This document shows positions 31,174 through 50,860 of a DNA stretch of 64,000 nt, piece after piece. Origin of the DNA: Flavonifractor sp. An10. Its GTDB lineage: Bacteria; Bacillota; Clostridia; Oscillospirales; Oscillospiraceae. The stretch is taken from positions 1 through 64,000 of the forward strand of contig NZ_NFMB01000008.1 of the NCBI RefSeq assembly GCF_002161215.1. Direction: 5' to 3'. Numbering within the stretch: the first letter of the stretch is position 1; each line of letters begins with the position of its first letter. The notes below the pieces were generated by a model that was not told the origin of the DNA, did not search any database, and was given only the letters and a program-made list of their open reading frames with translations. Both the position numbers and the translations under genes were made by a program.

Positions 31174-32634
31174 ATGGAACAACTCAGCTATGAGGCACTG
31201 AGACGGCGGCACTACAACGGCTATCTCCTGGATCGGGCCCCGGAACGGGTGCTGCAGTTTGGAGAGGGCAACTTCCTGCGAGGCTTTGCGGATTACTTTA
31301 TCGATGTCATGAACGAGCGGGTAAACTTTCAGAGCAAGGTGGTAGTTGTCCCGCCCGCTTCTGCCGGGAAGACGGGGCGCATCAACGGTCAGGAGGGGCT
31401 TTATCAGCTCTGCCTGCGGGGACGCCTGGACGGAGCGGCTGTGGATCAGCGCCGGGTGATCAGCTGCATCAGCAGAGCGGTAGACGTCTATGAGGCGTAC
31501 GAGGCCTTTCTGGAAACCGCCCGCAACCCGGATATGCGCCTGATCATCTCCAATACCACAGAGGCCGGCATTGTCTACGATCCCTCCTGCACTCCGGAGG
31601 ATCGCCCCCCTGCCAGCTTTCCGGCCAAGCTGACCCGCCTGCTGTGGGAGCGGTATCAGGCCGGCCTGCCCGGCTATCTGATCCTCCCCTGTGAGCTGAT
31701 TGCCGATAACGGAGCCGTGCTGCGGGACTATGTCCTGCGCCATGCCAGGGACTGGGCGCTGGGGGAGGGGTTCCTCCGGTGGCTGGAGGAGGAGAACACC
31801 TTCTGCAGCACCCTGGTGGATCGGATTGTCACCGGCTATCCCCGGGAACAGGCCGATGCCATGAACAGAGCCTTCGGCCTGGAGGATCGGCTGTTGGACG
31901 TGGCGGAGCCCTTCGGATTGTGGGTGATCGAGGGCCCCGAGGAGCTTGCGGAGCAGTTCCCTGCGCCCCAGGCCGGCCTGCCGGTGAAATTTGTCCCCGA
32001 CCACCACCCCTACAAGGAGCAGAAGGTGCGCATACTCAACGGCGGGCACACGGCCATGGTAGCCGCCGCCTATCTGGCGGGCCACGACATTGTGCGGGAC
32101 AGCATGGCGGATCCGGCTGTGCGCGCCTACCTGGAAGGGGCGCTTTTTGAGGAGATCATCCCGACCCTCTCGCTGCCCCGGGAGGACTGTGAGGCCTTCG
32201 CCCGGGCGGTGGAGGAGCGCTTTGACAACCCCTATATCGACCACCGGCTTCTGGATATTGCCCTCAACTCGGTCTCCAAATGGCGGGCGCGGGTACTGCC
32301 CAGCGTGGAGGCCTATCTGGCGAGATTCCGCGCGGTTCCCCGCCGCCTGGCCTTCTCCTTCGCGGCTCTGTTCGCATTTTACAGCCAGGGATGCCGGAAT
32401 GGTGAGGCCTACCCGATCCGGGATGATCCGGCGGTGCTGGCATTTTTTGCAGAGCATCGGGACGGGGACGCGGCGGCGCTGGTGAGCGGCTTCGCGGCCC
32501 GGCAAGATTTCTGGGGGAGGGATCTGGCGGAGCTGCCCGGCTTCGTGCCGGCGGCGGCCCGCGCACTGGAACAGATCCGCGCCCGGGGGATGTCGGCGGC
32601 CCTGGCCGCCTGCGGCAAGGGGGCGGAAGCATGA
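31174..32634 (+). CDS. uxaB: Tagaturonate reductase (altronate oxidoreductase)
   Basis: 486 aa of the mannitol dehydrogenase/UxaB family. It reduces D-tagaturonate to D-altronate with NADH in galacturonate breakdown. The N-terminal nucleotide-binding segment is VLQFGEGNFLRGFADYFID (27-45). The catalytic region includes VKFVPDHHPYKEQKVRILNGGHTA with the conserved K and N-G-G-H. ATG with an AAGGAGG site. Its stop overlaps the uxaA start by 4 bp (ATGA). In the pathway it works between UxaC and UxaA. A second family member, uxuB, lies at 42.6 kb. Confidence 0.9.
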   Translation: MEQLSYEALRRRHYNGYLLDRAPERVLQFGEGNFLRGFADYFIDVMNERVNFQSKVVVVPPASAGKTGRINGQEGLYQLCLRGRLDGAAVDQRRVISCISRAVDVYEAYEAFLETARNPDMRLIISNTTEAGIVYDPSCTPEDRPPASFPAKLTRLLWERYQAGLPGYLILPCELIADNGAVLRDYVLRHARDWALGEGFLRWLEEENTFCSTLVDRIVTGYPREQADAMNRAFGLEDRLLDVAEPFGLWVIEGPEELAEQFPAPQAGLPVKFVPDHHPYKEQKVRILNGGHTAMVAAAYLAGHDIVRDSMADPAVRAYLEGALFEEIIPTLSLPREDCEAFARAVEERFDNPYIDHRLLDIALNSVSKWRARVLPSVEAYLARFRAVPRRLAFSFAALFAFYSQGCRNGEAYPIRDDPAVLAFFAEHRDGDAAALVSGFAARQDFWGRDLAELPGFVPAAARALEQIRARGMSAALAACGKGAEA

Positions 32635-34112
32635 GCCGGGCGCTGCGGATTCATCCCATGGACAATGTGGCGGTGGCCCTGACCCCCATCGGGGCGGGGG
32701 AGACCGTTGCGGTGGAAGGGGCGGCGGTTGCCGCCCGCCAGGATATCCCCCAGGGACACAAGGTGGCCCTGGCCCCCATCGCTGCGGGTGCGGAGGTGGT
32801 CAAATACGGCTGCCCCATTGGCAGGGCAAAGACAGACATCCGGCCGGGAGAGTGGGTACATACCCACAATCTGGGCACCGGACTGGAGGCCGGCACCGCC
32901 GTGGAGGCCCGCGTGGCGGGGCCGGGGGAGTCCTCCCTGCCGCCGGAGACCTTCCAGGGGTACCGACGGAGGAGCGGCGGCGTGGGGATCCGGAACGAGC
33001 TGTGGATTGTCCCCACAGTGGGCTGCGTCAACGGTGTGGCCCAGACACTGGCCCGCCGGCTTGGGCCGGAGCTGGAGGGAAAGGTGGACGGCGTGTACGC
33101 CTGGCCCCACCCCTATGGCTGCTCCCAGATGGGCGACGATCAGGAGCATACCAGGCACATCCTCTGCGGGCTGATCCGCCACCCCAATGCCGGCGGCGTG
33201 CTGGTGCTGGGCCTGGGCTGTGAGAACAGCAGCATCCAAGTGCTTCAGGCGCTGCTGAAGGACTGGGACGAGGAGCGGGTGGCCTTCCTGGAGTGCCAGT
33301 CTGTGGAAGACGAGCTGGCGGAGGGGGAGCGGCTGCTGCGCGGCCTGGCAGACCGGGCGGCCGAGGATCGGCGGGAGGCCATCCGTGCGGAGGAGCTGGT
33401 AATCGGCCTGAAGTGCGGCGGTTCCGACGGCCTGTCCGGCATTACGGCCAACCCCCTGGTGGGCCGTGTCACCGACCGGCTGACCGCCATGGGCGGCTCT
33501 GCCCTGCTGGCAGAGGTGCCGGAGATGTTCGGGGCGGAGAGCGTGCTCTTCCGGCGCTGCGCCGATGAGGCGGCGGCCCGGGCCCTGCCCGCCCTGGTGG
33601 AGGACTTCAAGGACTACTTTGTCCGACATGGGCAGGTGGTCTATGAAAACCCGTCGCCGGGGAACAAGGCGGGTGGCATCACCACGCTGGAGGAGAAGTC
33701 GCTGGGCTGCGTCCAGAAGGGCGGAACCGCCCCGGTGGCCGATGTGCTCCGCTATGGGGAGCGGGTGCGCAGGCGCGGCCTGTCCGTGCTCCAGACCCCG
33801 GGGAACGACCTGGTGTCCACCACCGGGCTGGCGGCGGCGGGCGCGCACCTGATCCTCTTCACCACCGGCCGGGGCACCCCCTTCGGTGCGCCGGTGCCCA
33901 CCCTCAAAATCGCCACCAACTCCGCTCTGGCCGGACGGAAGGGCGGGTGGATTGATTACGACGCCGGCGGGCTGGCCCGCGGGGACGGCTGGGAAGCGCA
34001 CACCAGCGCGCTGTTCCGCCTGGTGCTGGACACGGCCTCCGGAAACCCTACCCGCTCCGAGCGGGCGGGGTATCGGGAGATTGCCATCTGGAAAGACGGC
34101 GTCACCCTATAA
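32631..34112 (+). CDS. uxaA: Altronate dehydratase
   Basis: 493 aa. It converts D-altronate to 2-keto-3-deoxygluconate (KDG). An N-terminal SAF-type domain (about 1-90) with PIGAGETV and IPQGHKVAL is followed by the UxaA catalytic domain (YRRRSGGVGIRNELWIVPTVGCVN, then HPYGCSQMGDD). The family is iron-dependent, and the Cys residues of GCVN, GCENSS and KCGGSDG are present. It ends where repeat B copy 2 begins. Translation is coupled with uxaB. Confidence 0.92.
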   Translation: MSRALRIHPMDNVAVALTPIGAGETVAVEGAAVAARQDIPQGHKVALAPIAAGAEVVKYGCPIGRAKTDIRPGEWVHTHNLGTGLEAGTAVEARVAGPGESSLPPETFQGYRRRSGGVGIRNELWIVPTVGCVNGVAQTLARRLGPELEGKVDGVYAWPHPYGCSQMGDDQEHTRHILCGLIRHPNAGGVLVLGLGCENSSIQVLQALLKDWDEERVAFLECQSVEDELAEGERLLRGLADRAAEDRREAIRAEELVIGLKCGGSDGLSGITANPLVGRVTDRLTAMGGSALLAEVPEMFGAESVLFRRCADEAAARALPALVEDFKDYFVRHGQVVYENPSPGNKAGGITTLEEKSLGCVQKGGTAPVADVLRYGERVRRRGLSVLQTPGNDLVSTTGLAAAGAHLILFTTGRGTPFGAPVPTLKIATNSALAGRKGGWIDYDAGGLARGDGWEAHTSALFRLVLDTASGNPTRSERAGYREIAIWKDGVTL

Positions 34113-34358: not shown

Positions 34359-35033
34359 TCAGAATGAGGCGTGGAGCATGGTGTTGATGGCCTCCTGATA
34401 GGAGAGCTGGATGTGATCGGACAGAAGCTGGCAGGCGTCCTCCATCCGCTGCTCGATGATGGCGTCCAGAATGGCGATATGCTCCCGGTTACTGACCTGA
34501 TAGCGGCTGGGCCGCCAGGCGGTGATCCGGATCAGGTTCAGGTAGTCGGTGAGGCTGCGCATCAGGTGGGAGGCGTACTGGTTATGCAGGGTATCCACCA
34601 GCGCCAGGTGGAACTGGTTGTCCAGATCAATCAGCGGCGCGGCGGTCTGCCCGGCGTTGCTGGCCTCGTCGTCCTGGTGCTGGATGAGCTGGCCGCGCAT
34701 GTCCAGCGCCCACTGGAGATCCACCCGGTAGAAGCACTGCCGGAGCACCAGCGGCTCCAACAGCAGGCGGATTTCAAAGATATCGTGGATGTCCTTGGGG
34801 GTGGGGCGGGTGATTTCGATGCCGCGGCGGGGGTGCACCCGAACCAGGTTGTCCTGCGCCAGGGCCAGAATCGCCTCCCGCACCGGTGTCCTGCCCAGGC
34901 CCAGCAGCTGCTGAAGCTGGGCCTCATTGACAAACTGCCCCGGAATCAGATCTTTCTGAAGAATCATGGTTTTGATCTGGTCGTACGCAATCTGGGACAA
35001 ACTGCCCTGCCGCTTTTCCGCCACTGCCGCCAT
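34359..35033 (-). CDS. GntR-family (FadR/UxuR-type) regulator of uronate genes
   Basis: 224 aa. The winged helix is at about 10-75 (SLSQIAYDQIKTMILQKDLIPGQ..., GLGRTPVREAILALAQDNLVRVHPRRG). The all-helical FCD effector domain is at 85-215, with a metal-type pattern of Asp, His and His (LIDLDNQFHLALVDTLHN, then SNREHIAILDAIIEQ). FadR-type proteins of this kind bind fructuronate, tagaturonate or related acids and repress uxu/uxa genes. The start at 35033 follows AGGAGG by 8 nt. It reads away from uxaC and lies between the two uronate operons. Confidence 0.87.
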   Translation of the reverse strand: MAAVAEKRQGSLSQIAYDQIKTMILQKDLIPGQFVNEAQLQQLLGLGRTPVREAILALAQDNLVRVHPRRGIEITRPTPKDIHDIFEIRLLLEPLVLRQCFYRVDLQWALDMRGQLIQHQDDEASNAGQTAAPLIDLDNQFHLALVDTLHNQYASHLMRSLTDYLNLIRITAWRPSRYQVSNREHIAILDAIIEQRMEDACQLLSDHIQLSYQEAINTMLHASF

Positions 35034-35226
35034 TGACATTGCCTCCTGATATATGTGATGGGTTCGGAGAACCCTTCGAGCCAAGCCCTTTATCCACCCA
35101 ATTATAGCAGTATCTTTCTGCGCGGTCAAGGTGTCCGGGTATGGGTTGGAGGGGGTATGTTTGTAGTAAATTCACAATTTCAAAGATTTGAAAATTATTT
35201 TCATGATAGAATTGCCAGTTTACCAC

Positions 35227-35388: not shown

Positions 35389-36819
35389 ATGAAAGCATTC
35401 CTGGATGAAGATTTCCTGTTGGACACTGACACGGCGAAAGAGCTCTACCACGGCACGGCGGAGCGGATGCCCATACTGGACTACCACTGCCATGTGAGCC
35501 CCAGGGAGATCGCGGAGGATCAGGTCTTCCACAATCTCACCCAGCTCTGGCTGGGCGGGGATCATTACAAATGGCGCCTGATGCGGGCCAACGGGACGGA
35601 TGAAAAATATATCACCGGAGACGCCTCCGACTTTGAGAAGTTTCAGGCCTGGGCCGCCGCCCTGGAGCGGGCGGTGGGCAATCCCCTGTACCACTGGAGC
35701 CACCTGGAGCTGCGGCGCTACTTCGGATATGAGGGCCACCTGACGGCGGCCAATGCCGGGGAGGTCTGGGAGCACTGCAGCAGGGTGATCGGCGATGGCA
35801 TGCACGTGCGGGAGATCCTGCGCAAGTCCGATGTGACGCTGCTGTGTACCACCGACGATCCGGCAGACAGCCTGGAGTGGCATGAGAAGCTGGCCGCTGA
35901 CGACACCCTGGAGACCAGAGTGCTCCCGGCGTTCCGGCCGGACAAGGCCGTCAATGTGGAGAAGCCGGACTTTGCCGGTTACATAGACAGGCTCTCCGGG
36001 GCCTCCGGCATACCTGTCACCGGCTGGGAGAGCCTTACGGCCGCGCTGGATGCGCGGATGGATTTCTTTGCGGCCCGGGGCTGCAAGGTGTCCGACCACG
36101 GCCTGGACAACCTGTGCTTCCTTCCCGCCTCGGAGGCGGAGCTGGACGGCATCCTGAAGCGCCGCCTGGCGGGCGAGGCGGTCAGCCGCCAGGAGATGTG
36201 GCAGTATAAATCGGCCCTGCTGAGCTTCCTCGCCCGGGGGTACGCCAGGCGGGACTGGGCCATGCAGCTCCACTTCTCCGCCCAGCGGGACAACAACCGC
36301 CGGATGTTCCGGCTGCTGGGGCCGGATACCGGCTACGACTGCATCGGCCCCGGGGTGAATCTGCCGGATCTGGCCCGCTTCCTGAGCGGCCTGGAGGAGA
36401 GCGGGGAGTTGCCCCGCACCGTCCTCTACTCCCTGGAGCCGGGCGACAATGCGGCGCTGGTGAGCCTGATGGGCTGCTTCCAGAGCCCCGGCACGGCGGG
36501 CAGGCTGCAGCATGGCTCGGCCTGGTGGTTCAACGACCACCGGCTGGGCATGGAGGCTCAGCTTACCAATCTGGCCGCCGGCGGCCTGCTGGGCAACTTC
36601 ATCGGCATGCTGACCGACTCCCGCAGCTTCCTGTCCTACACCAGACATGAGTACTTCCGCCGGATCCTCTGCGGCCTGCTGGGCCGCTGGACGGAGAACG
36701 GCGAATTCCCGGACGACCGGCCCGCGCTGGAGCGGCTGGTGGCAGACATCTCCTATCGAAACAGCATCCGCTACTTTGGATTTGAGCAGTATCACTTACG
36801 GGGGGCAGATACGGTATGA
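35389..36819 (+). CDS. uxaC: Uronate isomerase
   Basis: 476 aa. It isomerises D-glucuronate to D-fructuronate and D-galacturonate to D-tagaturonate. This amidohydrolase-fold family has the HxH-type metal site in [13 protein letters not shown], then TTDDP and the [11 protein letters not shown] motif, with [13 protein letters not shown] near the end. ATG with an AAAGGA site. It overlaps the ABC ATPase gene by 4 bp (ATGA). First step for both uronates, consistent with uxaB/uxaA and uxuB/uxuA in the same locus. Confidence 0.95.
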
Positions 36820-37547
36820 GTATGATCAGCGTTAAGGGGCTCCAGAAGAGCTTCGGCAAGCACGAGGTGCTCAAGGGCATCGACATTGACATCGAGCCTG
36901 GAGAGGTGGTGGCCATCGTAGGCCCCTCCGGCTGCGGCAAGTCCACCTTCCTGCGCTGCCTGAACCTGCTGGAAAGGCCCACGGGAGGACAGATCCTCTA
37001 CCACGGCATTGATCTGGTCAGCGCCGACAGCAAGAGTGCCACCAAAGAGCTGCTGAGCATGGGCATGGTGTTCCAGCAGTTCAACCTGTTCCCGCATCTG
37101 ACCGTGATTGACAACATCATGCTGGCGCCCACGCTGGTAAAGAAGCGGGACAAAAAGGACTGCGAGGAGCAGGCCCTGAGCCTGCTCAAGACCGTTGGGC
37201 TGGAGGACAAGCGGGATGCCTACCCCAACCAGCTCTCCGGCGGGCAGCAGCAGCGCATCGCCATCGCACGGGCCCTGGCCATGAAGCCGGAGCTGATGCT
37301 CTTTGACGAGCCCACCTCCGCCCTGGATCCCGAGATGGTGGGAGAGGTGCTGGACGTCATGAAGAAGCTGGCCGCCGACGGCATGACCATGCTGGTGGTG
37401 ACCCACGAGATGGGCTTCGCCCGCGAGGCGGCCGACCGGGTGATCTTCATCGACGGCGGCCACATCGTGGAGGACAGCGAGCCCGGTGAATTCTTCGCAC
37501 ATCCCAAAAACAAGCGCCTTCAGGATTTCCTGAGCAAGATGCTCTGA
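36816..37547 (+). CDS. ABC transporter ATPase, polar amino acid (GlnQ) type
   Basis: 243 aa. Walker [10 protein letters not shown] (about 36-44), Q-loop in [14 protein letters not shown], signature LSGGQQQR, Walker [15 protein letters not shown], switch H in [15 protein letters not shown]. All are typical of the amino-acid PAAT class. It overlaps uxaC by 4 bp. Its receptor and permease are encoded 3.3 and 4.3 kb further on in the same operon, with four enzyme genes between. Because it is surrounded by uronate genes I infer that the system imports a sugar acid or uronate derivative and not glutamine. Confidence 0.88.
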
Positions 37548-37575
37548 TTCACAACATTCAAGGAGGAAGCAAAAC

Positions 37576-38328
37576 ATGTCTCAGATCAAGGTGGCCCGCT
37601 ACAGCGGCGTCAAGTATGACTTTGTCAACGGCTACGCCCGTGTGCCCGTTCTGGAGGGTGAGTTCGATCAGGCCCACTTCGCCCACTGCGCCCTGCAGCC
37701 CGGCTGCTCCATCACTCCGGATGTCTACTCCGTGACCGAGCATAACCAGCTCTTCATCTTCACCAAGGGCAAGGGTTATGTGACCACCCCCCGTCAGGCC
37801 TGGAACATCAAGGAGCCCGGCGTCTTTGTCCCCGAGTTTGACACGGAGCGCTTCACCATCACCTGCTCCGCCGACAGCAAGCAGCCCCTGGAGTTCCTCC
37901 ATATCATCACCGAGCTGAGTGATTACGATAAGAACTGCCTGGTGGAGTCCCGCATGGTGCTGCCCCGGTTCCGCGGCATCTCCGAGGGGTGGACTTACGA
38001 CGAGGACTTCAAGGACAACGACACCACCACCTCCATCATGCTGCTGGAGCACCGCAACCTGGGCCGCCTGTCCATGGGCTGTGTCCGCGGCACCGGCCCC
38101 ATCGAGATCGGCCAGCACATCCACAACGAGCTGGCCCAGTGGTACTTCCCGCTCCCCGGCTCCGAGTTCATCTACACCGCCGGCGGCGAGGAAGTGAAGA
38201 TGACGGGCGGCGATCTGTCCTTCACCCCCACCGGCTTCTGGCACGGCAGCAAGGTGGAGGCCGGCAAGCAGTGCGACTACATCTGGTTTGAGATGTGCAT
38301 CGACGGCTATCCGGGAGAGATCAAGTAA
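37576..38328 (+). CDS. Bicupin protein 1, putative sugar-acid isomerase
   Basis: 250 aa with two cupin folds. The first has SVTEHNQLFIFTKGKGYV (H56). The second has IGQHIHNELAQWYFPLPG with H181, H183 and Q188, and H223 in FWHGS, a plausible metal site. It is about 55% identical to the gene that follows and has no annotated function that I recognise. KduI-type and lyxose-isomerase-type cupins act on sugar acids, which makes an isomerase or epimerase likely, but this is inference from context. ATG preceded by AAGGAGG. Confidence 0.72.
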   Translation: MSQIKVARYSGVKYDFVNGYARVPVLEGEFDQAHFAHCALQPGCSITPDVYSVTEHNQLFIFTKGKGYVTTPRQAWNIKEPGVFVPEFDTERFTITCSADSKQPLEFLHIITELSDYDKNCLVESRMVLPRFRGISEGWTYDEDFKDNDTTTSIMLLEHRNLGRLSMGCVRGTGPIEIGQHIHNELAQWYFPLPGSEFIYTAGGEEVKMTGGDLSFTPTGFWHGSKVEAGKQCDYIWFEMCIDGYPGEIK

Positions 38329-38395
38329 GCAAAGCAGCGCAGCATCCGAATCAAAAAATCATAAACACAACATTCACTGTAAAGGGGAATTTGCC

Positions 38396-39145
38396 ATGGC
38401 TCTGGTTAAAATTTCGAGAGGTGCCGATATCAAGCACGAGTATACCAACGGCGTGTCCCGCGTGCCCATCCTGGAAGGGGCCTACAAGGACGCCAAGGTG
38501 GAGCGGATCTCCCTCCAGCCCGGCGCGGATCTGACGCCGGAGACCTACTCCAAGACCGAGCACAACCAGGTGTTCCTGGTTACCGCCGGCAAGGGCTATA
38601 TCGTCACTCCCCGCCGTGTCTACAACATTACCGAGGTCTCGGTGTTCGTGCCCGACTTCGATAAGGAATCCTTTACCTTCCACTGCGCCGCTGACGCCAA
38701 GGAGACGATGGAGATCGTCCACTTCGTCACCGAGCTGAGCGACTATGACAAGACCTGCCTGAAAGAGGCCCACCTGACCCTGCCCCGGTTCCGCGGCGTA
38801 TCCCAGGCGTGGCACTACAAGGAGGACTTCACCGGCGCCGACATCCAGCAGATGATGATGATCGAGCACCGCAACCTGGGCCGCCTGTCCATGGGCGCCA
38901 ACTTCGGCACCGGCCCCAACTACATCGGCCAGCACATCCACAATGAGCTGGAGCAGTGGTACATCATGCTGCCCGGCGCCTCCTTCACCTATACCGCCGA
39001 GGATGAAAAGATCCACGTGCAGGGCGGCGACATCACCTTTACCCCCCATGGCTCCCACCACGGCAGCGAGTGCGCCGAGGGCGAGAAGTTCGCCTATGTG
39101 TGGTTCGAGCTGTGTGAGAACGGCTATCCCGGCGAGATCAAGTAA
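38396..39145 (+). CDS. Bicupin protein 2, paralogue of the preceding gene
   Basis: 249 aa; it aligns end to end with bicupin 1 (both end GYPGEIK). The second-cupin metal motif QHIHNELEQWYIMLPG and the HHGS motif are kept, and the first cupin has SKTEHNQVFLVTAGKGYIV. Unlike copy 1 the motif has a glutamate (NELEQW). ATG with AAAGGGG. The pair is probably a duplication that kept both members, either as a heterodimer or for different substrates. Confidence 0.72.
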   Translation: MALVKISRGADIKHEYTNGVSRVPILEGAYKDAKVERISLQPGADLTPETYSKTEHNQVFLVTAGKGYIVTPRRVYNITEVSVFVPDFDKESFTFHCAADAKETMEIVHFVTELSDYDKTCLKEAHLTLPRFRGVSQAWHYKEDFTGADIQQMMMIEHRNLGRLSMGANFGTGPNYIGQHIHNELEQWYIMLPGASFTYTAEDEKIHVQGGDITFTPHGSHHGSECAEGEKFAYVWFELCENGYPGEIK

Positions 39146-39148
39146 CCC

Positions 39149-39991
39149 ATGTCCGAAAGCTGGATCCTGCTGGGTTCCAACGGGCAGTATGTGCGCAGGC
39201 CCCTGGATGCCTTCCTGGCGGATATGGGGGAGCTGAGGCTGAAGTCTCTGGACTTCGTCCCACAGCCCCCCCACCTCTGGCTGAGCCACGCGGAGTATGA
39301 GGAGCCGGCCCCCCTGCTGGAGAAGCTGGCGGCGGCGGGCCTGCGGATCTCAGTCCTCACGCCGCCGGCCTGCCGTTACTCCATCACCGCGCCCCGGGGA
39401 AGGCAGCGGGAGGCCACGGTGGATTATTACCGGAACAGCATTGCGCTGGCCCGCGCCCTGGGGGCCGGGCAGGTGGTGCTGGGCGCGGCGGGCGCCTGCT
39501 GGGATCTGACGCCGGAGGCGCTGCTCCAAAACGCGGCGGAGGTGCTGGAGCGCCTCTGCCCCGCGGCGGAGGCAGCGGAGGTATCCCTGCTGCTGGCCCC
39601 GGTCATGGGGCCGGAGACTCCGCTGATCGCCGAGTCCCCGGTGCTGGGCCGGGCGGAGGAGTTCTCCGGGCTGCTCCGCCGGTTGGAGAGCCCCGCCCTG
39701 GGCGTATGCCTGGACACCAATGTGATGGCCTCCTGGGGGGACACCATTCCCCGGTGGTTCGACCTGCTGGGGGAGAAGACCGGCCTGATCCGCCTGTGCG
39801 ACGGCAACAGCCACGGCTGGCGGGCCTGGGGCGAGGGATGCCTGCCCATGGAACGCTTTGCGGAACAGCTGCGGTCGGCGGGCTATGCCGGGGCGCTGTC
39901 CCTGCTGCTGCCGGGGGATCGCTACGGCGGCAACCCGGACTGGCCCCACCGGCGGGCCGTGGAGGCCCTGACGAGAGGAGGGGCGGCATGA
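39149..39991 (+). CDS. Sugar phosphate isomerase/epimerase-like TIM barrel, degenerate metal site
   Basis: 280 aa of the AP-endonuclease-2/xylose-isomerase-like family. Compared with the next gene, three of four metal ligands are replaced: A150 where E is expected (LLLAPVM), C217 in place of H region (RLCDGN) and L254 instead of the last E (LSLLLPGD); D189 remains. So it may be a non-catalytic partner or use another mechanism. There is no strong RBS; the start follows the bicupin stop by 3 bp and overlaps the next gene by 4 bp (ATGA), so all are translationally coupled. Confidence 0.72.
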   Translation: MSESWILLGSNGQYVRRPLDAFLADMGELRLKSLDFVPQPPHLWLSHAEYEEPAPLLEKLAAAGLRISVLTPPACRYSITAPRGRQREATVDYYRNSIALARALGAGQVVLGAAGACWDLTPEALLQNAAEVLERLCPAAEAAEVSLLLAPVMGPETPLIAESPVLGRAEEFSGLLRRLESPALGVCLDTNVMASWGDTIPRWFDLLGEKTGLIRLCDGNSHGWRAWGEGCLPMERFAEQLRSAGYAGALSLLLPGDRYGGNPDWPHRRAVEALTRGGAA

Positions 39992-40824
39992 GCGGAATCA
40001 AGCGCAGCCAGCTGGTCAACATGAACCAGCACTACCGGCGCTTCTCCCTGGACTATTTCCTGGACTGCCAGCAGCGGCTGGATATTGGGCAGATCGAGCT
40101 CTGGTGCGGCGCGGCCCACTTCTGGCTGGATCACACCGGCTATGACGACGTGCCCGCCCTCCGGCAAAAGCTGCGGGATCACGGCGTGCGGGTGGTGTCC
40201 GTCACCGCGCCCAGCATGGCCTATCAGTATCAGTACGCCTCCCAGGAGCCCCTGGGCCTGGAGTACTCCTTCCGCTACTTCTCCAACGCCATCCGCCTGG
40301 CTTCCGAGCTGGGGGCCGACCGGGTGGTGGTCAACTCCGGCTGGGGCTACTGGGGAGAGGACGAGACGGCCATGTGGGCCCGCTGCCGGGATCACCTGGG
40401 CCGGCTCTGCCGGGTGGCGGAACCCCTGGGGGTAAAGCTGGCCATGGAGTCCCTCCGGGCCGACGAGAGCAACCTGGTCAACAGCCTGGAGCGGGCCCGC
40501 CGGATGTACCGGGAGGTAAACCACCCCAGCCTGAAAATGATGGTGGACAACATTGCCACCGGCGCGGCGGGGGAGAGCCTGGACGACTGGTTCGATGCCT
40601 TTGGGGAGGATCTGATCCACATGCACTTCCTGGACGGCGACCCCTGGCTGCACAACGTCTGGGGGGATGGGAACACCTCCCTGTCCGCCCAGCTGCAATC
40701 CCTGAACGACCACCACTACACCGGCTATCTGGTGCAGGAGGTGGCGGACGAGCACTACTTCTCCGATCCCTTTGCCGCCGACCGCCGGAATTTCCGGGTT
40801 CTGGAGCGGTTTGTGGAGGATTAG
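39988..40824 (+). CDS. Sugar phosphate isomerase/epimerase-like TIM barrel, intact metal site
   Basis: 278 aa. The four metal ligands of the family are in place: E154 (LAMESLR), D187 (MMVDNIA), H213 (IHMHFLDG) and E251 (LVQEVADEH). The fold supports C2/C4 epimerisation or isomerisation of a ketose or keto-acid. A GAGGAGGGG site precedes the ATG. Its partner with a damaged site is upstream. The substrate is unknown. In this locus it could turn an unusual uronate or ulosonate into fructuronate or tagaturonate. Confidence 0.8.
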   Translation: MSGIKRSQLVNMNQHYRRFSLDYFLDCQQRLDIGQIELWCGAAHFWLDHTGYDDVPALRQKLRDHGVRVVSVTAPSMAYQYQYASQEPLGLEYSFRYFSNAIRLASELGADRVVVNSGWGYWGEDETAMWARCRDHLGRLCRVAEPLGVKLAMESLRADESNLVNSLERARRMYREVNHPSLKMMVDNIATGAAGESLDDWFDAFGEDLIHMHFLDGDPWLHNVWGDGNTSLSAQLQSLNDHHYTGYLVQEVADEHYFSDPFAADRRNFRVLERFVED

Positions 40825-40885
40825 CGTTATTTTCCGGCGGCTTTCCGCCGGCGAATAAAAACTCTGAAAGGAAAAGGTGAAAAGA

Positions 40886-41794
40886 ATGAAACTCAAGAAG
40901 CTTGTACCCGCTGCGCTGTCTCTCGCGCTGGTGCTCTCCCTGGCCGCCTGCGGCGGCGGCACCACCAACTCCCCCGCGCCCGAGACCGACTCCCCCGCTG
41001 CCAGCACCGACTCTCCCGCCGCCAGCACCGAGACTGCCGCCCCCGAGGACGACGGCTCCCTGCAGCGGGTTCTGGACGCCGGCGTGCTGACCGTTGGCAA
41101 CGAGGGCAACTGGATCCCCTACGTGTACAACGAGGACGGCACCGGCGACCTCACCGGCTTCGAGGTGGAAGTGGCCCGTGAGATCGGCGCCCGCCTGGGC
41201 GTGGACGTGGAGTTCCAGACCGCCGACGGCTGGGACCCCGTGCTGGCCGGCCTGGACGCTGGCCGCTACGACGTGGTGGTCTGCGGCGTGAACCCAGACC
41301 CCGATCGCCAGGAGAAGTACGCCTGCTCCATCGCCTACGCTGAGAACCCCTACTGCCTGGTGGTGAACGGCGACAACACCGACATCACCTCCTTCGAGGA
41401 TCTGGAGGGCAAGCTGTGCATCAACTCTCCCTCCTCCGCCGCCGGCCGGATCGCCCAGCGCTACGGCGCCACCACCGCTGACGGCGACCTGACCGCCGCC
41501 ATGGAGCAGCTGAACACCGGCCGCGCCGACGGCCATATCAACAATGTGGCCGCCGTGGAGGAGTACATGGAGAGCCGCCCCGAGGTCAACGTGAAGATCG
41601 CCGCCATCTATGAGCCCGCCGAGGAGAACCGCTACGAGATCGAGTCCTCCGTCATGTGCCGCAAGGAGGACCAGAGCCTGTGCGACGGCATCTCCGAGGT
41701 TCTGCAGGAGATGATCGACGACGGCTTCCTCTATGACCTGACCGTGGAGTACTTCGGCCAGTCCGTGGCTGACAGCACCAGCATCTATCAGTAA
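40886..41794 (+). CDS. ABC solute-binding lipoprotein, amino-acid (PAAT) type
   Basis: 302 aa. Signal with lipobox LAAC (C22), a Ser/Pro/Ala/Thr linker (25-55), then the SBP_bac_3 fold. The carboxylate-binding Arg of the family is kept (R141 in DPDRQEKY). The Asp that normally grips the amino group of an amino acid appears as N220 (DGHINNVAAV). A ligand with a carboxylate but no amine, such as a sugar acid, would suit this. The ATG at 40886 is preferred to a GTG at 40877 because of the AAAAGG spacing. A strong hairpin follows the gene. Confidence 0.83.
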   Translation: MKLKKLVPAALSLALVLSLAACGGGTTNSPAPETDSPAASTDSPAASTETAAPEDDGSLQRVLDAGVLTVGNEGNWIPYVYNEDGTGDLTGFEVEVAREIGARLGVDVEFQTADGWDPVLAGLDAGRYDVVVCGVNPDPDRQEKYACSIAYAENPYCLVVNGDNTDITSFEDLEGKLCINSPSSAAGRIAQRYGATTADGDLTAAMEQLNTGRADGHINNVAAVEEYMESRPEVNVKIAAIYEPAEENRYEIESSVMCRKEDQSLCDGISEVLQEMIDDGFLYDLTVEYFGQSVADSTSIYQ

Positions 41795-41823
41795 TCCATC
41801 CGCTTATCCGTAAGACCATCCGC

Positions 41824-41853
41824 CTGGGTGGCTGCCCGCGGGCAGCCACCCAG
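41824..41853 (+). terminator. Processing/attenuation hairpin between receptor and permease genes
   Basis: A perfect 15-bp stem CTGGGTGGCTGCCCG/CGGGCAGCCACCCAG has no U-tract. Such hairpins after a binding-protein gene commonly stabilise that part of the mRNA and lower expression of the permease. Confidence 0.6.
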
Positions 41854-41892
41854 CCCTTAAAAACCAAAATTTGATGAAGGAGGTGGGCCGCT

Positions 41893-42564
41893 GTGGAACA
41901 AATCCAACTGGTGATTGAATCATTCTGGCCCATGTTCAAAGCTGGCTTACTGATCTCCGTCCCACTCATGCTGGTCTCCTTTGCATTGGGACTCGTGCTG
42001 GCCTTTATCCTGGCGCTGATGCGCATGTCCAAGATCAAGCCCTTCAAGGCCATCGCCTGGTTTGTGGTGTGGGTGATCCGCGGCACGCCTCTTCTGGTTC
42101 AGATCTACATCATCTACTTCGGCCTGCCCTCGGTGGGCCTGGTTCTGGATCCCATCCCATCGGCCATCCTGGCCCTGACTATCAGCCAGGGCGCCTATAA
42201 CTCGGAAGTCATCCGCGGCGCCCTGACCTCCATCCCCAAGGGACAGTTTGAGGCCTGCCGCGCCCTGGGCCTGAACAAGCTCCAGACCATGGGCCGCGTG
42301 GTTATCCCCCAGGCCGCCCTGGTGGCGGTGCCCGCCCTGTCCAACTCCTTCATCAGCCTGCTGAAGGATACCTCCCTGGTCTCCACCATCACCGTGGCCG
42401 AGATCATGATGACGGCCAAGGGCATCATCGCGGTGCAGTTCCAGCCCCTGCTGTTCTACTGCGAGGCCGGCGTTGTCTACCTGATCTTCAGCACCGTCCT
42501 GACCAGACTGCAGGGCATGCTGGAGAAAAAGCTGGGCAAGCACCTGGTGGACACCAGAGCCTGA
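41893..42564 (+). CDS. ABC transporter permease, polar amino acid (HisM/GlnP) type
   Basis: 223 aa, GTG start with AGGAGG. Five membrane segments and the EAA-like loop motif GQFEACRALGLNKLQTMGRVVIPQA that docks on the ATPase, plus RGTPLLVQIYIIYFGLP near 60-76. All are typical of PAAT permeases, which often function as homodimers. It completes the transporter with the ATPase at 36.8 kb and the receptor at 40.9 kb. Transport substrate inferred as above. Confidence 0.88.
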   Translation: MEQIQLVIESFWPMFKAGLLISVPLMLVSFALGLVLAFILALMRMSKIKPFKAIAWFVVWVIRGTPLLVQIYIIYFGLPSVGLVLDPIPSAILALTISQGAYNSEVIRGALTSIPKGQFEACRALGLNKLQTMGRVVIPQAALVAVPALSNSFISLLKDTSLVSTITVAEIMMTAKGIIAVQFQPLLFYCEAGVVYLIFSTVLTRLQGMLEKKLGKHLVDTRA

Positions 42565-42586: not shown

Positions 42587-44209
42587 ATGTTACATTTGAA
42601 TATGCAAGGTCTGCGGGATCGCGGGGCGTGGGAGGCGGCGGGCATCAAGCTGCCCGGCTACGACATCCCCGCCATGCGGGAGCGCACCTGGCGCGCCCCT
42701 GTGTGGGTGCACTTCGGCGCGGGCAACATCTTCCGCGGCTTCCTGGCCGCAGCCCAGCAGACCCTTTTGAATAGCGGAGCGGCCGACACCGGCATCCTGG
42801 CCGCCGAGTCCTTTGACTTCCAGATCATCGACCACGTCTACACCCCCTACGATGATCTGAGCCTGCTGGTGCGGATGCGCGCCGACGGCACCGACGAAAA
42901 AGAGGTCATCGCCAGCGTGGCCGGCGGGCTCAAGGCCGACTGCGCCGGCCCCGACTGGGCCCGGCTGGCAGAGCTCTTCCGCGCCCCCAGCCTCCAGATG
43001 GCCAGCTTCACCATCACCGAGAAGGGCTACGCCCTCACCGATCTGGAGGGGAAGCCCCTGCCGGTGGTGGAGCGGGATCTGGCCGCCGGGCCCGACGGCC
43101 CCCGGCACACCATGTCCATCGCGGCCGCCCTGCTGTACCGCCGCTATCAGGCGGGGGGCGCGCCCATCGCCATGGTGAGCATGGACAACTGCGCCCAGAA
43201 CGGCAAGAAGCTGCGGGACGGGGTGCTGGCCGTGGCCCGGGGCTGGCAGGAGCGGGAACTGGTGCCCGCCGCCTTCCTGGACTGGCTGGAGAACCCCGCC
43301 TGTGTGAGCTTCCCCTGGTCTATGATCGACAAGATCACCCCCCACCCCTCCGAGAGGGTGAAGGAGGCGCTGGAGGGGCTGGGCCTGGCGGATATGACCA
43401 TCTCCAAGACCAACACCGGCACCCTGATCGCCCCCTTTGTCAACACGGAGATCACCGAGTACCTGGTGCTGGAGGACGCCTTCCCCAACGGCCGCCCGGC
43501 CCTGGAGAAGGCCGGGGTATACCTGACCGACCGCACCACGGTGGAGAAGGCGGAGAAGATGAAGGTGGGCACCTGCCTCAACCCGCTGCACACCGCCCTG
43601 GCGGTGTACGGCTGCCTGCTGGGCTATACCTCCATCTCCGCCGAGATGGGGGATCCGGATCTGCGGGCGCTGGTGGAGCACATCGCGGAGGAGAGCCTCC
43701 CGGTGGTGGAAGATCCCGGCATCCTCAGCCCCAGGGCCTTTATCGACGAGGTGCTCAACGAGCGCTTCCCCAACCCCGCCATCCCCGACACCCCCCAGCG
43801 CATTGCCGCCGACACGTCCCAGAAGATCCCGGTGCGCTACGGCGGAACGCTGCGCCGCTATGCCCAGCGGCCGGAGCTGGAGCTCTCCTCCCTGGTGTTC
43901 GCCCCCCTGGTGTTTGCCGGCTGGTGCCGGTATCTGCTGGGTGTGGACGATCAGGGCCGGGAGATGCCGGTCAGCCCCGACCCCATGGCGCCCCAGCTCC
44001 AGGCCCACCTGGCGGGCATCCGTCTGGGGGAGCCGGACAGCTGTACGGCTCAGCTGCGCCCCATCCTGTCCAACGCCGCCATTTTCGGCGTGGATCTGTA
44101 CCAGGCCGGGCTGGGCGGGCGGGTGGAGGAGATGTTCCGTGCCATGCTGGCCGGCCCCGGCGCGGTACGCGGCACCCTGCGCCACTATTTATCGCTCGCA
44201 GGAGCATAA
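42587..44209 (+). CDS. uxuB: Fructuronate reductase (mannonate oxidoreductase)
   Basis: 540 aa of the mannitol dehydrogenase family. It reduces D-fructuronate to D-mannonate. The N-terminal nucleotide-binding segment is VWVHFGAGNIFRGFLAA (about 38-54). The catalytic part has SMDNCAQNGKKL and MKVGTCLNPLHTALA with the conserved K, N and H. Distinct from UxaB at 31.2 kb in sequence and length. It is followed after 13 bp by uxuA. The ATG has an AGAGAGG-like site. Confidence 0.88.
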   Translation: MLHLNMQGLRDRGAWEAAGIKLPGYDIPAMRERTWRAPVWVHFGAGNIFRGFLAAAQQTLLNSGAADTGILAAESFDFQIIDHVYTPYDDLSLLVRMRADGTDEKEVIASVAGGLKADCAGPDWARLAELFRAPSLQMASFTITEKGYALTDLEGKPLPVVERDLAAGPDGPRHTMSIAAALLYRRYQAGGAPIAMVSMDNCAQNGKKLRDGVLAVARGWQERELVPAAFLDWLENPACVSFPWSMIDKITPHPSERVKEALEGLGLADMTISKTNTGTLIAPFVNTEITEYLVLEDAFPNGRPALEKAGVYLTDRTTVEKAEKMKVGTCLNPLHTALAVYGCLLGYTSISAEMGDPDLRALVEHIAEESLPVVEDPGILSPRAFIDEVLNERFPNPAIPDTPQRIAADTSQKIPVRYGGTLRRYAQRPELELSSLVFAPLVFAGWCRYLLGVDDQGREMPVSPDPMAPQLQAHLAGIRLGEPDSCTAQLRPILSNAAIFGVDLYQAGLGGRVEEMFRAMLAGPGAVRGTLRHYLSLAGA

Positions 44210-44222: not shown

Positions 44223-45299
44223 ATGAAGATGACATTTCGCTGGTACGGGAGTCAGATGGATCCCATACCGCTGCGATACATCAGACAGATCCCCAACATG
44301 AGCGGTGTGGTCACCTCCCTGATGGATATGCCCGCCGGGGCCCTCTGGCCCACGGAGCGGATTCAGGCCATGAAGGAGGAGGTCAACGCCGCCGGGCTGG
44401 AGATGGAGGTCATTGAGAGCGTCAACGTCCACGAGGACATCAAGCTGGGCCTGCCCAGCCGGGACGAGTACATCGACAACTACCGGGAGACGGTGCGCCG
44501 GCTGGGCCGGGCGGGCGTAAAGGTGATCTGCTACAACTTCATGCCGGTCTTTGACTGGACACGCACCGACCTGGCCAAGCCCCGTCCCGACGGCTCCACC
44601 GTGCTGGCCTACGACCAGTCGGTGATCGACCGGATCACGGATCCCCAGGCGTTTGCGGATCAGATCCAGCAGGGGGCGGGGGAGTTTGAGATGGCCGGCT
44701 GGGAGCCGGAGCGGATGAAGGAGCTCAAGGAACTGTTCACCCGGTACAAGAGCGTCTCCCACGAGGATTTGTTTGCCCATCTGGAATACTTCCTCAAGGC
44801 GGTCATCCCGGTGTGCGAGGAGTACGGCGTGACCATGGCCATCCATCCGGATGATCCCCCCTGGGATCTCTTCGGTCTGCCCCGTATCTATACCTGCCGG
44901 GAGAACATGCGCCGCATCCTGGATCTGGTGGACAGCCCCTGCAACAGCCTGACCCTGTGCTCGGGCTCCCTGGGCTCCAACCCCGCCAACGACATTCCCG
45001 CCCTGGTGCGGGAGTTCGGCGGGGAGGGGCGCATCGCCTTCGCCCATGTGCGGAACATCCAGTTCACCGGCCCCGGCCAGTTTGAGGAGGCGGCCCATTT
45101 CTCCGCAGACGGCAGCCTGGATCTGTATGAGATCATGAAGGCGCTCTATGATGTGGGCTTCCAGGGGTACATCCGCCCCGACCACGGCCGGATGATCTGG
45201 GACGAGAAGGGAAGAGCCGGCTACGGCCTGTACGACCGGGCCCTGGGCGCTTCCTACCTCAACGGCCTGTGGGAGGCCATCCAGAAAGACCATCGATAA
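44223..45299 (+). CDS. uxuA: Mannonate dehydratase
   Basis: 358 aa, TIM-barrel UxuA family. It dehydrates D-mannonate to KDG. It starts MTFRWYGSQMDPIPLRYIRQIPN and has the metal ligands in MAIHPDDPP (H), SLTLCSGSLGS (C), FAHVRNI (H) and YIRPDHGRMIW (D and H). ATG with AAGGAG. Shares with UxaA the product KDG, so both uronate branches converge here. Followed by a terminator-like hairpin. Confidence 0.94.
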   Translation: MKMTFRWYGSQMDPIPLRYIRQIPNMSGVVTSLMDMPAGALWPTERIQAMKEEVNAAGLEMEVIESVNVHEDIKLGLPSRDEYIDNYRETVRRLGRAGVKVICYNFMPVFDWTRTDLAKPRPDGSTVLAYDQSVIDRITDPQAFADQIQQGAGEFEMAGWEPERMKELKELFTRYKSVSHEDLFAHLEYFLKAVIPVCEEYGVTMAIHPDDPPWDLFGLPRIYTCRENMRRILDLVDSPCNSLTLCSGSLGSNPANDIPALVREFGGEGRIAFAHVRNIQFTGPGQFEEAAHFSADGSLDLYEIMKALYDVGFQGYIRPDHGRMIWDEKGRAGYGLYDRALGASYLNGLWEAIQKDHR

Positions 45300-45377: not shown

Positions 45378-46340
45378 ATGGATCCCATTTTGGAACAGAT
45401 CTACCGCATCGGCGTCATCCCGGTGATCGCCATCGACGATGCCAGCAAGGCCGTACCCCTGGCCCGCGCTCTGGTGGCGGGCGGGCTGCCCGCCGCGGAG
45501 GTGACCTTCCGCACGGCCGCCGCCCAGGAGGCCATGGAGGCGATTACGGCCCAGGTGCCTGAGATGCTGGTGGGCGCGGGCACCGTTCTCACCCATGACC
45601 AGGTGGATCGGGCCCTGGCCGCCGGCGCCAAGTTCATCGTCAGCCCCGGCTTCAATCCGGACACGGTGCGCTATGTCCAGTCCAAAGGGGCGCTGATGCT
45701 GCCCGGCACGGCCACCCCCGGCGAGATGGAGCAGGCCATGGCCCTGGGACTGGACGTGGTGAAGTTCTTCCCCGCTGAGCAGAACGGCGGTGTGGCCAAG
45801 CTCAAGGCGGTGGCGGGGCCCTACAAGACACTGAAATGGATGCCCACCGGCGGCGTCAACGCCAAAAATCTGATGGACTATCTCTCCTTTGATCAGATCG
45901 TCGCCTGCGGCGGCACCTGGATGGTGAAAAAGGATCTGATTGAGGCGGAGAACTGGACGGAGATCACCCGCCTGGCCCGGGAGGCGGTGGACACCATGCT
46001 GGGCCTCACCCTGGCCCATGTGGGCATCAACTGCGCCGACGCCCAGGAGTCGGAGCGCACGGCGAAGGCCATCTGCGGGCTGTTCGGGTTCCCCTATCGT
46101 GCGGGCGGCGCCTCCAACCACGCGGGATCGGCGGTGGAGTGCACCAAGGCTCCCGGCCCCGGCACCCACGGGCACATCGCCATCGCCGCCAACAACCTGG
46201 ATCGGGCCATTTACCACCTGGAGCTGCGCGGCGTGGAATTTGACCGGAGCACCCTGAAAACCGATGCCAGGGGCCGGGCCAAGGCGGTCTATGTGGCCGG
46301 TGAGTTCGGCGGCTTTGCCATCCATCTGGTACAGAAATAA
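45378..46340 (+). CDS. eda: KDPG/KHG aldolase fused to a VOC (glyoxalase-like) domain
   Basis: 320 aa. Residues 1-205 are the class I aldolase: E41 and R45 in EVTFRT, PGTATP at 109-114 and the Schiff-base lysine K129 in VVKFFPAEQ. It splits KDPG to pyruvate and glyceraldehyde-3-phosphate. Residues ~210-320 look like a VOC-fold domain (LTLAHVGINCADAQESERTAKAICGLFGF; NLDRAIYHLELRGVEF). Such fusions occur in some Clostridia. Stand-alone Eda proteins have about 210 aa. The role of the extra domain is unknown. The ATG is preceded by AAAGGATG, a modest site. Confidence 0.88.
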   Translation: MDPILEQIYRIGVIPVIAIDDASKAVPLARALVAGGLPAAEVTFRTAAAQEAMEAITAQVPEMLVGAGTVLTHDQVDRALAAGAKFIVSPGFNPDTVRYVQSKGALMLPGTATPGEMEQAMALGLDVVKFFPAEQNGGVAKLKAVAGPYKTLKWMPTGGVNAKNLMDYLSFDQIVACGGTWMVKKDLIEAENWTEITRLAREAVDTMLGLTLAHVGINCADAQESERTAKAICGLFGFPYRAGGASNHAGSAVECTKAPGPGTHGHIAIAANNLDRAIYHLELRGVEFDRSTLKTDARGRAKAVYVAGEFGGFAIHLVQK

Positions 46341-46354: not shown

Positions 46355-47380
46355 ATGAGCAAGCGCATTGTCACCTTTGGAGAGATCATGCTCCGGCTGG
46401 CCCCCAACGGCTACTACCGGTTCTTCCAGAACGATCAGATGCAGGCCACCTTCGGCGGCGGGGAGGCCAATGTGGCGGTCTCCCTGGCCAACTACGGCAT
46501 GGACTCGGTCTATGTGACCAAGCTGCCCGCCCATGCCATCGGACAGGCGGCGGTGGACTCCCTGCGGTACTTCGGCGTGGACACCTCGAAAATCGTGCGC
46601 GGCGGCGACCGCGTGGGCATCTATTACCTGGAGAAGGGCGCCTCCCAGCGGGGCAGCGTGTGCATCTATGACCGGGCGCACTCCGCCATTCAGGAGGCCC
46701 GGCCGGATGACTTCGACTGGGACGCCATTCTGGACGGGGCGGACTGGTTCCACTTCACCGGCATTACCCCGGCCCTGGGGCCCAACCTGGTGGAGATCTG
46801 CAGGCAGGCCTGCCAGACGGCCAAGGCCAAAGGCGTCAAGGTATCCTGTGATCTGAACTACCGGGGCAAGCTGTGGACTCGGGAGGAGGCCCGGGCCGCC
46901 ATGACGGAGCTGTGCCGGTATGTGGATGTGTGCATCTCCAACGAGGAGGACGCCAAGGACGTGTTCGGCATCGAGGCCGCGGACACTGATATCACCGGCG
47001 GCAAGCTGAACAAGGAGGGCTACAAGTCCGTGGCCAGGCAGCTGGCCGACCGATTCGGCTTTGAAAAGGTTGCCATCACCCTGCGTACTTCTATCTCCGC
47101 CAGCGACAACGACTGGGCCGGCATGCTGTACGATGGGGAGAACTGCTGCTTCTCCAAGGAGTATCACCTGCGTATCGTGGACCGTGTGGGCGGCGGCGAC
47201 AGCTTCGGCGGCGGGCTGATCTACGCCCTGCTCAACGGCAGGGATACCCAGGGAGCCATTGAATTTGCCGTGGCGGCCTCCGCACTGAAGCACTCGGTGG
47301 AAGGGGACTTCAATCGGGTCACCGTAGCCGAGGTGGAAAAGCTGGCCGGTGGCGACGGTTCCGGCCGGGTTCAGCGCTGA
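46355..47380 (+). CDS. kdgK: 2-dehydro-3-deoxygluconokinase (KDG kinase, PfkB family)
   Basis: 341 aa. It phosphorylates KDG to KDPG, linking the Uxa and Uxu branches with Eda. PfkB start TFGEIMLRLAP, GG motif FGGGEANVAVSLA, and the ATP/catalytic signature DRVGGGDSFGGGLIYALL with the catalytic Asp near residue 285. It follows eda by 14 bp with an AAGGAGG site and is the last gene before a strong hairpin. No uncommon features. Confidence 0.9.
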   Translation: MSKRIVTFGEIMLRLAPNGYYRFFQNDQMQATFGGGEANVAVSLANYGMDSVYVTKLPAHAIGQAAVDSLRYFGVDTSKIVRGGDRVGIYYLEKGASQRGSVCIYDRAHSAIQEARPDDFDWDAILDGADWFHFTGITPALGPNLVEICRQACQTAKAKGVKVSCDLNYRGKLWTREEARAAMTELCRYVDVCISNEEDAKDVFGIEAADTDITGGKLNKEGYKSVARQLADRFGFEKVAITLRTSISASDNDWAGMLYDGENCCFSKEYHLRIVDRVGGGDSFGGGLIYALLNGRDTQGAIEFAVAASALKHSVEGDFNRVTVAEVEKLAGGDGSGRVQR

Positions 47381-49201: not shown

Positions 49202-49310
49202 TTCTAAAATTCTGGAAACCCATTCTAAAAATTTAGAATCGCAGCGGTTTCAGGGGGTGCGGGGAGCGCGCCCAAGGTGACCATTTGGTTTATTTCCAGA
49301 ATTTTAGAAC
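49201..49310. promoter_or_regulatory. Triple palindromic upstream activating sites
   Basis: Site 1 49201-49218 (GTTCTAAAATTCTGGAAA), site 2 49222-49239 (ATTCTAAA-AA-TTTAGAAT, a perfect palindrome), site 3 49293-49310, the exact reverse complement of site 1. Centres of sites 1 and 2 are 21 bp apart, two helical turns. They lie 100-210 bp before the -24 element, the usual place for a sigma-54 activator. A run of T after site 3 also allows a terminator reading. Confidence 0.7.
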
Positions 49311-49408
49311 AACCTTTTTTGTGCCCCGGCTGCCCCCGGGGCGCTGCCGCCGCCGCATCCCCTTGTGCCCCAAGGCTTTGAAAAATTTTTTCATCGTTCT
49401 TCCTCTTT

Positions 49409-50844: not shown

Positions 50845-50860
50845 ATCCCTGTCTGACCTT

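Follow-up and report, generated by a model that had tools for sequence, protein, structure and literature searches.

A conserved seven-gene block joining an amino-acid-type importer, two bicupins and a TIM-barrel pair in a uronate operon of Flavonifractor

Pectin, glycosaminoglycans and host glucuronides are sources of uronates for gut bacteria, and the described system closest to the present locus is the Ashwell-type hexuronate isomerase operon. The stretch of DNA analyzed here, a 64,000-nucleotide window from Flavonifractor sp. An10 (contig C14 of a 3.88 Mb genome), resembles such an operon in having uxaC, uxaB-uxaA, uxuB-uxuA, kdgK and eda all at one locus, but differs in a mid-operon carrier of the PAAT kind (an amino-acid-type ABC importer), two bicupins and a pair of TIM barrels. 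The gene order is uxaB-uxaA, gntR on the minus strand, and then uxaC-atp-cup1-cup2-tim1-tim2-sbp-perm-uxuB-uxuA-eda-kdgK. The block between uxaC and uxuB-uxuA-eda-kdgK (36816-42564) thus comprises an ATPase, two bicupins, two TIM barrels, a binding protein and a permease; a sequence-only reading of the window had counted five genes instead of these seven, while profile searches agree with the positions and kinds that it gave to the individual genes (Table 1). From the gene content, the conserved gene order, the tie to uxaC and the active-site residues kept or lost, we infer, at roughly even odds, an import-and-isomerise module through which an acidic (keto)sugar enters uronate catabolism, with the substrate, the reactions and the pairing of subunits all belonging to the inferred part.

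The block was compared across 21 loci from 18 genomes, or 19 genomes with the window (L numbers denote loci and G numbers genomes; repeat genomes at L023-L025, L027, L029 and L040 and the lone cupins at L031-L033 were excluded). This analysis revealed the contiguous order atp-cup1-cup2-tim1-tim2-sbp-perm in 15 of the 19 genomes: the window, five members of the same genus (L016-L020), two of the same family (L056, L057) and loci from Oscillibacter, Anaerovorax, Lachnospiraceae and other Clostridia (L026, L030, L034, L035, L036, L038, L039), where L035 was counted although its contig ends inside perm. In the remaining four genomes, the genes lie on two contigs (G017), cup2 is located elsewhere (G1216), the contig ends (G1226) or the order is different (G1272, locus L153). 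Mageeibacillus (L028/L037) has cup2 relocated beside uxuA, with cup1 still next to the importer and the TIM pair. Immediately downstream of the block, uxuB or uxuA is found in 13 of the 15 contiguous cases. The order is kept at identities to the window as low as 57-59% for the cupins, 60% for tim2, 45% for sbp and 34% for tim1, and cup1 of the window shares 97% identity with its G014 counterpart. The order kept in 15/19 genomes is more than chance would give and rules out a chance neighbourhood; the block is conserved in other genomes, as the sequence-only reading would have it. Strong matches to the cupins (E < 1e-140) occur in 7/400 genomes of the family; another six matches there are weak, one of them in G348 (1.3e-14) and the other five between 7e-5 and 8e-4. 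Besides the own genome, matches were found in 6/391 genomes of a class sample, all of them remote, and in 0/398 of a phylum sample (E 1e-8); the family of G1222 yielded 2/120 besides G1222 itself. Among open-licence PMC papers, we found no description of the seven-gene module.

The block is tied to uronate catabolism by its co-occurrence with UxaC, which is present in all 18 of the cupin-carrying genomes searched, although it does not adjoin the block in four of them (L026, L030, L035, L041). Among 99 relatives, UxaC scored over its cut-off in 7/7 genomes with cupins versus 31/92 without (Fisher p 8e-4), and within the genus in 7/7 with the block versus 1/13 without (p 1e-4); both p-values overstate independence, given the kinship of the genomes and the linkage of the genes in most cases. 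G019, a member of the same genus that has UxaC but no block, has two notable neighbours of uxaC, one resembling a GH2 beta-glucuronidase and the other a GPH symporter, each scoring under its curated cut-off. The uxaC gene of G019 was considered as a broken copy, which was not upheld, its frame being open with no stop in the match. No relative of the symporter was detected in the nine block-carrying genomes, own genome included (0/9, E 1e-10), an absence that suggests, but does not prove, that the PAAT importer fills the carrier role held by the symporter in G019.

The same co-occurrence within the genus and the same exchange of carriers would also be expected if the importer carried ordinary galacturonate or glucuronate, with the cupins and the TIM pair acting as accessory ring-openers, mutarotases or repair epimerases. 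Two operons of the form uxaC-cup-uxuB-uxuA-eda-kdgK (L032, L033), in which a lone cupin occurs without importer or TIM genes, likewise fit a cupin that is a general helper of the pathway. We nevertheless consider plain uronate import doubtful, because two cupins and a TIM pair accompany the importer in all 15 contiguous cases, exceeding the needs of plain import, and because the Oscillibacter genome G1215 has the block (L026) besides a separate cluster of uxaC, eda, kdgK and uxaA with TRAP-like genes (by eye).

The importer shares the SBP_bac_3 domain, the TIGR01726 permease and the GlnQ-like ATPase with PAAT importers, for instance those of cystine and glutamine, and the nearest PDB relatives of its binding protein are amino-acid binding proteins. 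Arg144 of sbp aligns with their conserved arginine, which presumably contacts the ligand carboxylate, and is kept in 17/18 binding proteins (Ala in L153). The second-lobe aspartate position, presumed to contact the alpha-amine, is Asn in 13/18 (Asn223 in the window), Asp in four and Ser in one. This replacement, the splitting of the importer genes by enzyme genes and the uronate context set the system apart from known PAAT importers. Judged from the alignment, the residue pattern would fit a carboxylate ligand that often has no free alpha-amine, as in a uronate, and the missing aspartate would lower the claim of an amino-acid cargo, not the assignment to the PAAT type.

The two bicupins are 55% identical to each other. 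Profile searches bore out their identity as cupins, with Cupin_2 matching in the C-terminal half, but placed them in no more specific family. His181, His183, Gln188 and His223 of the C-terminal barrel are invariant in all 26 cupins aligned; in the same 26 proteins, the N-terminal barrel has no comparable conserved residue set. A metal set of the type H-x-H...Q...H would also be expected in KdgF, a single-domain cupin unlike the bicupins, and KdgF, KduI and SftX are metal cupins of acid sugars, as cup1 and cup2 would be. KduI appears among the Foldseek matches of cup1 (7yrs_F, TMq 0.61); an identity as KduI was rejected for both bicupins, since in Pfam at E 0.001 they match Cupin_2 only and not the KduI family. 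SftX (DUF4867), a cupin from another acid-sugar pathway, sulfoglycolysis, is unrelated to cup1 and cup2; passages of PMC11968277 propose it as a ketose mutarotase and state that its authors detected no activity. The AlphaFold2 model of cup1 (pLDDT 90.3) contains two cupin barrels, and its fold matches are led by DUF861/(S)-ureidoglycine aminohydrolase proteins (Z 21-22), with 4e2q, an (S)-ureidoglycine aminohydrolase, at Z 21.3 (root-mean-square deviation 2.8 over 226 residues). Many other bicupins follow within 1-2 units, so that no function is singled out, and the best hit of a cup1 sequence search of the PDB had an E value of only 0.37. In a tree, the cup2 proteins group together (11 rows, 100/99; 12 rows with a Spirochaetales protein, 96/98), whereas cup1 is not resolved as a single clade. 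A role as the required tagaturonate-fructuronate epimerases was also rejected for the cupins, as neither branch is missing from the window and, in Mageeibacillus (L028), cup1 and the TIM pair already have UxaE (422.8 bits, cut-off 27.1) next to them. The uronate cluster of Mageeibacillus (L028, 2307-9034) adds to UxaE a 6-phosphogluconate dehydrogenase and a nickel-dependent hexonate epimerase of the LarA superfamily, additions that suggest a route through gluconate.

Within the TIM pair, one member has a complete active site and the other does not. Residues E154, D187, H213 and E251 of tim2 align with the Glu, Asp, His and Glu of psicose 3-epimerase and are invariant in 20/20 proteins of the locus comparison and 19/19 of a wider set. 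All 17 tim1 orthologues lack the first Glu (replaced by Ala, Met, Gly and others), have Arg in place of His and have lost the second Glu, keeping only the Asp. The loss of three of the four metal or catalytic residues does not bear out the proposal that both barrels are epimerases; as the Arg is invariant, tim1 has a conserved altered site and not one in decay. A sequence search of the PDB with tim1 returned nothing at E 0.01. For the tim2 model (AlphaFold2, pLDDT 93.6), the top fold matches are tied between ketose 3-epimerases from T. maritima and elsewhere, namely 2zvr (Z 29.3, root-mean-square deviation 2.0, 253 residues), Art22 (29.3) and 5h1w (29.2), where we take 2zvr and 5h1w to be IolO; matches at Z 27-29 mix 3-epimerases and xylose isomerases, and Foldseek ranks YcjR, a 3-keto-glucoside 4-epimerase, first. 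The IolO model itself gives 35.9 bits for tim2 and 26.2 for tim1 (cut-off 300). IolO and LguG, of the D-tagatose 3-epimerase kind, epimerise 5-keto-L-gluconate to D-tagaturonate, as parts of PMC12632266 describe. By analogy, given the shared fold and metal residues, they would be a plausible direct precedent for a tim2-type barrel with a possible role beside tagaturonate reductase. The degenerate partner and adjoining bicupins of tim2 are points of difference, neither being reported for IolO or LguG in those parts of PMC12632266.

The nearest curated model for tim2 is FrlC, fructoselysine 3-epimerase (95.9 bits for tim2, 52.5 for tim1, cut-off 305), which raises the question of an amine conjugate of a uronate (a fructosamine-like Amadori or Heyns product) as the substrate: tim2 would act on the ketosamine as FrlC does, and the bicupins would release the uronate. 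The usual route by a kinase and a SIS deglycase would be closed, because carbon 6 is a carboxylate and offers no C6 hydroxyl to an FrlD-like kinase. Fructoselysine is taken up by an ABC system in Intestinimonas (as given in part of PMC4697335) and by FrlONM in B. subtilis (as given in part of PMC12632257). Proteins resembling tim2 occur with a PAAT importer at L116 (5894-11801; a 42% identical barrel, with BtpA/SgcQ and a kinase of the FGGY kind also present) and, as a second FrlC relative, beside a true frlC (442.2 bits) and frlD (331.9), both over their cut-offs, at L119 (3605-7865); the place of (S)-ureidoglycine aminohydrolase among the top fold matches of cup1 would point the same way. 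The idea thus draws on an FrlC-like barrel, an amino-acid-type carrier and the missing C6 hydroxyl, and the data do not demand it. The score of tim2 lies so far under the FrlC cut-off that tim2 is not FrlC, and neither an FrlD kinase nor an FrlB deglycase-like gene is found among the operon genes. In addition, the cup1 fold matches are tied with many other bicupins, the amine-binding aspartate is replaced by Asn in most of the binding proteins, the block contains no aminohydrolase, amidase or amino-acid gene, and L032 and L033 have lone cupins. On balance, an amine conjugate appears improbable.

Relatives of the cupins and the TIM pair are also found with other importers. In the same genome as L035, L136 (1340-10088) contains a CUT1-type importer, three tandem bicupins with 30-33% identity to cup1 and cup2, a pair of TIM barrels (26% and 41% identical to tim2) and a MatE exporter; in its first TIM barrel, Cys replaces the His and Asp the last Glu, with the first Glu kept. 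L153 (3380-10400) unites two cupins, PAAT genes (64, 42 and 61% identical to atp, sbp and perm), a TIM pair and MatE, and none of the window's uronate genes lies within 19.5 kb; its first TIM barrel has, by eye, lost both Glu and kept the His. Cupins occur with carbohydrate-type ABC genes at L152, L154 and L155, the last of which also has GH88 and GH28. The cupin and TIM-pair set therefore looks like a catalytic unit that is used with different importers. At L066 (4736-12735), and likewise at L067 and L069, a more remote bicupin neighbours a glycyl radical enzyme with its activase, a manA-like gene product, a TIM barrel resembling 3-epimerases and a pair of Gfo/Idh proteins; the L066 glycyl radical enzyme scores 267.7 bits against the PFL2-3 model, under its cut-off, and the gene content of these loci would be that of an anaerobic sugar pathway.

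The MatE exporters, which lie beside cupin sets at L136 and L153 (Pfam) and at L152, L154 and L155 (by eye), would suit a bond-cleaving complex in which the TIM pair and the bicupins split a small conjugate by an elimination reaction and so set its uronate free. Passages of PMC8563793 provide a precedent in C-glycoside deglycosidase (DgpB/DgpC, CarB/CarC), whose TIM subunit has Glu/Asp/His/Glu metal ligands and whose active site lies where this subunit meets a second one, a beta-sandwich. A metal TIM barrel with a beta-rich partner gene is common to both systems, but the partner in the deglycosidase is a beta-sandwich protein, and the Gfo/Idh oxidase that such pathways need for the 3-oxo sugar is missing beside the block. 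There is also no MatE beside the window block, and PAAT importers take small ligands, which makes such a complex very improbable here. C-glycoside deglycosidase was not among the best 50 fold matches of tim2, a result that excludes nothing. A broader proposal, hardly a probable one, combines the varied importers (PAAT, CUT1) with the amine conjugate: bicupins and TIM pair, one barrel active and one a pseudo-enzyme, would be an undescribed multi-subunit sugar-remodelling enzyme, here freeing a uronate from an amine conjugate in a kinase-free deglycation.

Returning to the import-and-isomerise module, several of these observations weigh against it. The set at L136 accompanies a CUT1 importer, and no uronate genes are found near the PAAT importer of L153, so that the chemistry is not bound to be specific to uronates; in Oscillibacter (L026), the block is located away from the uronate genes, which have their own cluster. 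The lone cupins of L032 and L033 imply that cupin and TIM barrels need not serve one pathway; tim2-like proteins (31-34%) are located elsewhere in those genomes. Both uronate branches of the window are complete without the block enzymes, so that there is no missing step for these to supply. The four binding proteins that have Asp blunt the reading of a ligand without an amine, the L153 protein lacks both Arg and Asp, and tim2 lies below all curated epimerase cut-offs. Of what the sequence-only reading proposed, a conserved module coupled to uronates is supported, through its tie to uxaC and the symporter of the block-less relative, while the unusual substrate, the isomerisation and an entry point before fructuronate or tagaturonate stay at the level of a proposal.

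In the module as we envisage it, the ATPase, the permease (presumably a homodimer) and the lipoprotein would form an importer on the PAAT scaffold, probably turned to an acidic sugar. Its cargo would be some hexuronate, and a rarer uronate of keto or epimeric form would be likelier than a common one. The bicupins may open or tautomerise its ring, or shift a carbonyl, at the metal site of the C-terminal cupin, and tim2, of the metal-dependent ketose 3-epimerase type, would invert the carbon adjoining the ketone; the degenerate tim1 would be its putative partner, structural or substrate-binding. The product, predicted to be glucuronate or galacturonate, fructuronate or tagaturonate, would be converted to 2-keto-3-deoxygluconate by UxaC, UxuB/UxuA or UxaB/UxaA, which KdgK and Eda would then turn into pyruvate and glyceraldehyde 3-phosphate.

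The genes from uxaC to kdgK likely form one operon, given their short gaps and overlaps. From their coordinates, uxaC/atp and tim1/tim2 overlap by 4 bp, and the gaps measure 28 bp (atp-cup1), 67 (cup1-cup2), 3 (cup2-tim1), 52 (tim2-sbp), 98 (sbp-perm), 22 (perm-uxuB), 13 (uxuB-uxuA), 78 (uxuA-eda) and 14 (eda-kdgK). Counts of promoter-like sites (4, with 3.2 expected) and terminator-like sites (5, with 7.2 expected) were also obtained. The hairpin in the sbp-perm gap may shield the mRNA of the binding protein or adjust its level; the 101-nucleotide stretch around it is modestly unusual (z -2.03, with 5/200 shuffles folding equally well). As uxaB and uxaA accompany uxuB and uxuA, both uronate branches are present at the locus. 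The uxaA-like protein scores under the cut-off of the galactarate dehydratase model (293.7 versus 730.85). The uxuB product reaches 121.1 bits against the fructuronate reductase model PRK15037, far under the cut-off of 603, and the gene is therefore named from its Mannitol_dh domains and its position. The eda product has about 110 extra C-terminal residues past the aldolase domain, by eye a glyoxalase/VOC-like fold with no Pfam match; the long form is also found in G019 (71% over 320 residues), and only about 205 residues align in several members of the genus. Just past kdgK (47858-52611), a sigma-54 activator with a PAS domain is followed by genes that, by eye, resemble those of a large permease and of AtuA, a stretch that is probably a separate regulated unit.

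Table 1. Features of the uronate locus in the window, with positions, strands and supporting evidence.
Feature	Position	Strand	Evidence
uxaB, tagaturonate reductase	31174..32634	+	NCBIfam PRK03643 593.7 bits, cut-off 359; start is the first ATG, by eye
uxaA-like altronate/galactarate dehydratase	32631..34112	+	Pfam GD_AH_C 328.7 bits, GD_AH_second, SAF
GntR/FCD regulator, divergent from the operon	34359..35129	-	Pfam GntR and FCD; start codon uncertain
uxaC, uronate isomerase	35389..36819	+	Pfam UxaC 645.6 bits; first ATG and match start at 35389
atp, PAAT importer ATPase	36816..37547	+	ABC_tran 132.2 bits; best NCBIfam GlnQ 320.8, cut-off 379
cup1, bicupin 1	37576..38328	+	Cupin_2 in C-terminal half only, 27.0 bits, just below the 27.2 cut-off
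cup2, bicupin 2	38396..39145	+	Cupin_2 in C-terminal half only, 27.8 bits
tim1, xylose-isomerase-like TIM barrel, degenerate active site	39149..39991	+	AP_endonuc_2 104.8 bits
tim2, ketose 3-epimerase-like TIM barrel	39988..40824	+	AP_endonuc_2 104.2 bits; E154, D187, H213, E251
sbp, family-3 binding lipoprotein	40877..41794	+	SBP_bac_3 94.8 bits, cut-off 26.4; GTG start listed, in-frame ATG at 40886
Strong hairpin, 13 bp, GC-rich, sbp-perm gap	41824..41853	+	No T run behind
perm, PAAT importer permease	41893..42564	+	TIGR01726 (His/Glu/Gln/Arg-opine type) 99.5 bits, cut-off 42.2
uxuB-like mannitol-dehydrogenase-family reductase	42587..44209	+	Mannitol_dh and Mannitol_dh_C
uxuA, mannonate dehydratase	44223..45299	+	Pfam UxuA 513.1 bits; TIGR00695 385.3, cut-off 199.55
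eda, 2-keto-3-deoxy-6-phosphogluconate (KDPG) aldolase	45378..46340	+	Pfam Aldolase 228.4 bits, residues 9-199 of 320; TIGR01182 252, cut-off 156.05
kdgK, PfkB-family sugar kinase	46355..47380	+	Pfam PfkB 109.7 bits

The importer protein, the two cupins and the active and degenerate TIM barrels make up a compact gene set that is suited to direct tests of substrate and chemistry, and the retention of a degenerate tim1 in 17/17 orthologues poses a question about pseudo-enzyme subunits. If the proposed module holds true, it would add a further type of carrier, and probably a new entry reaction, to the ways in which Flavonifractor and other Clostridia break down hexuronates.

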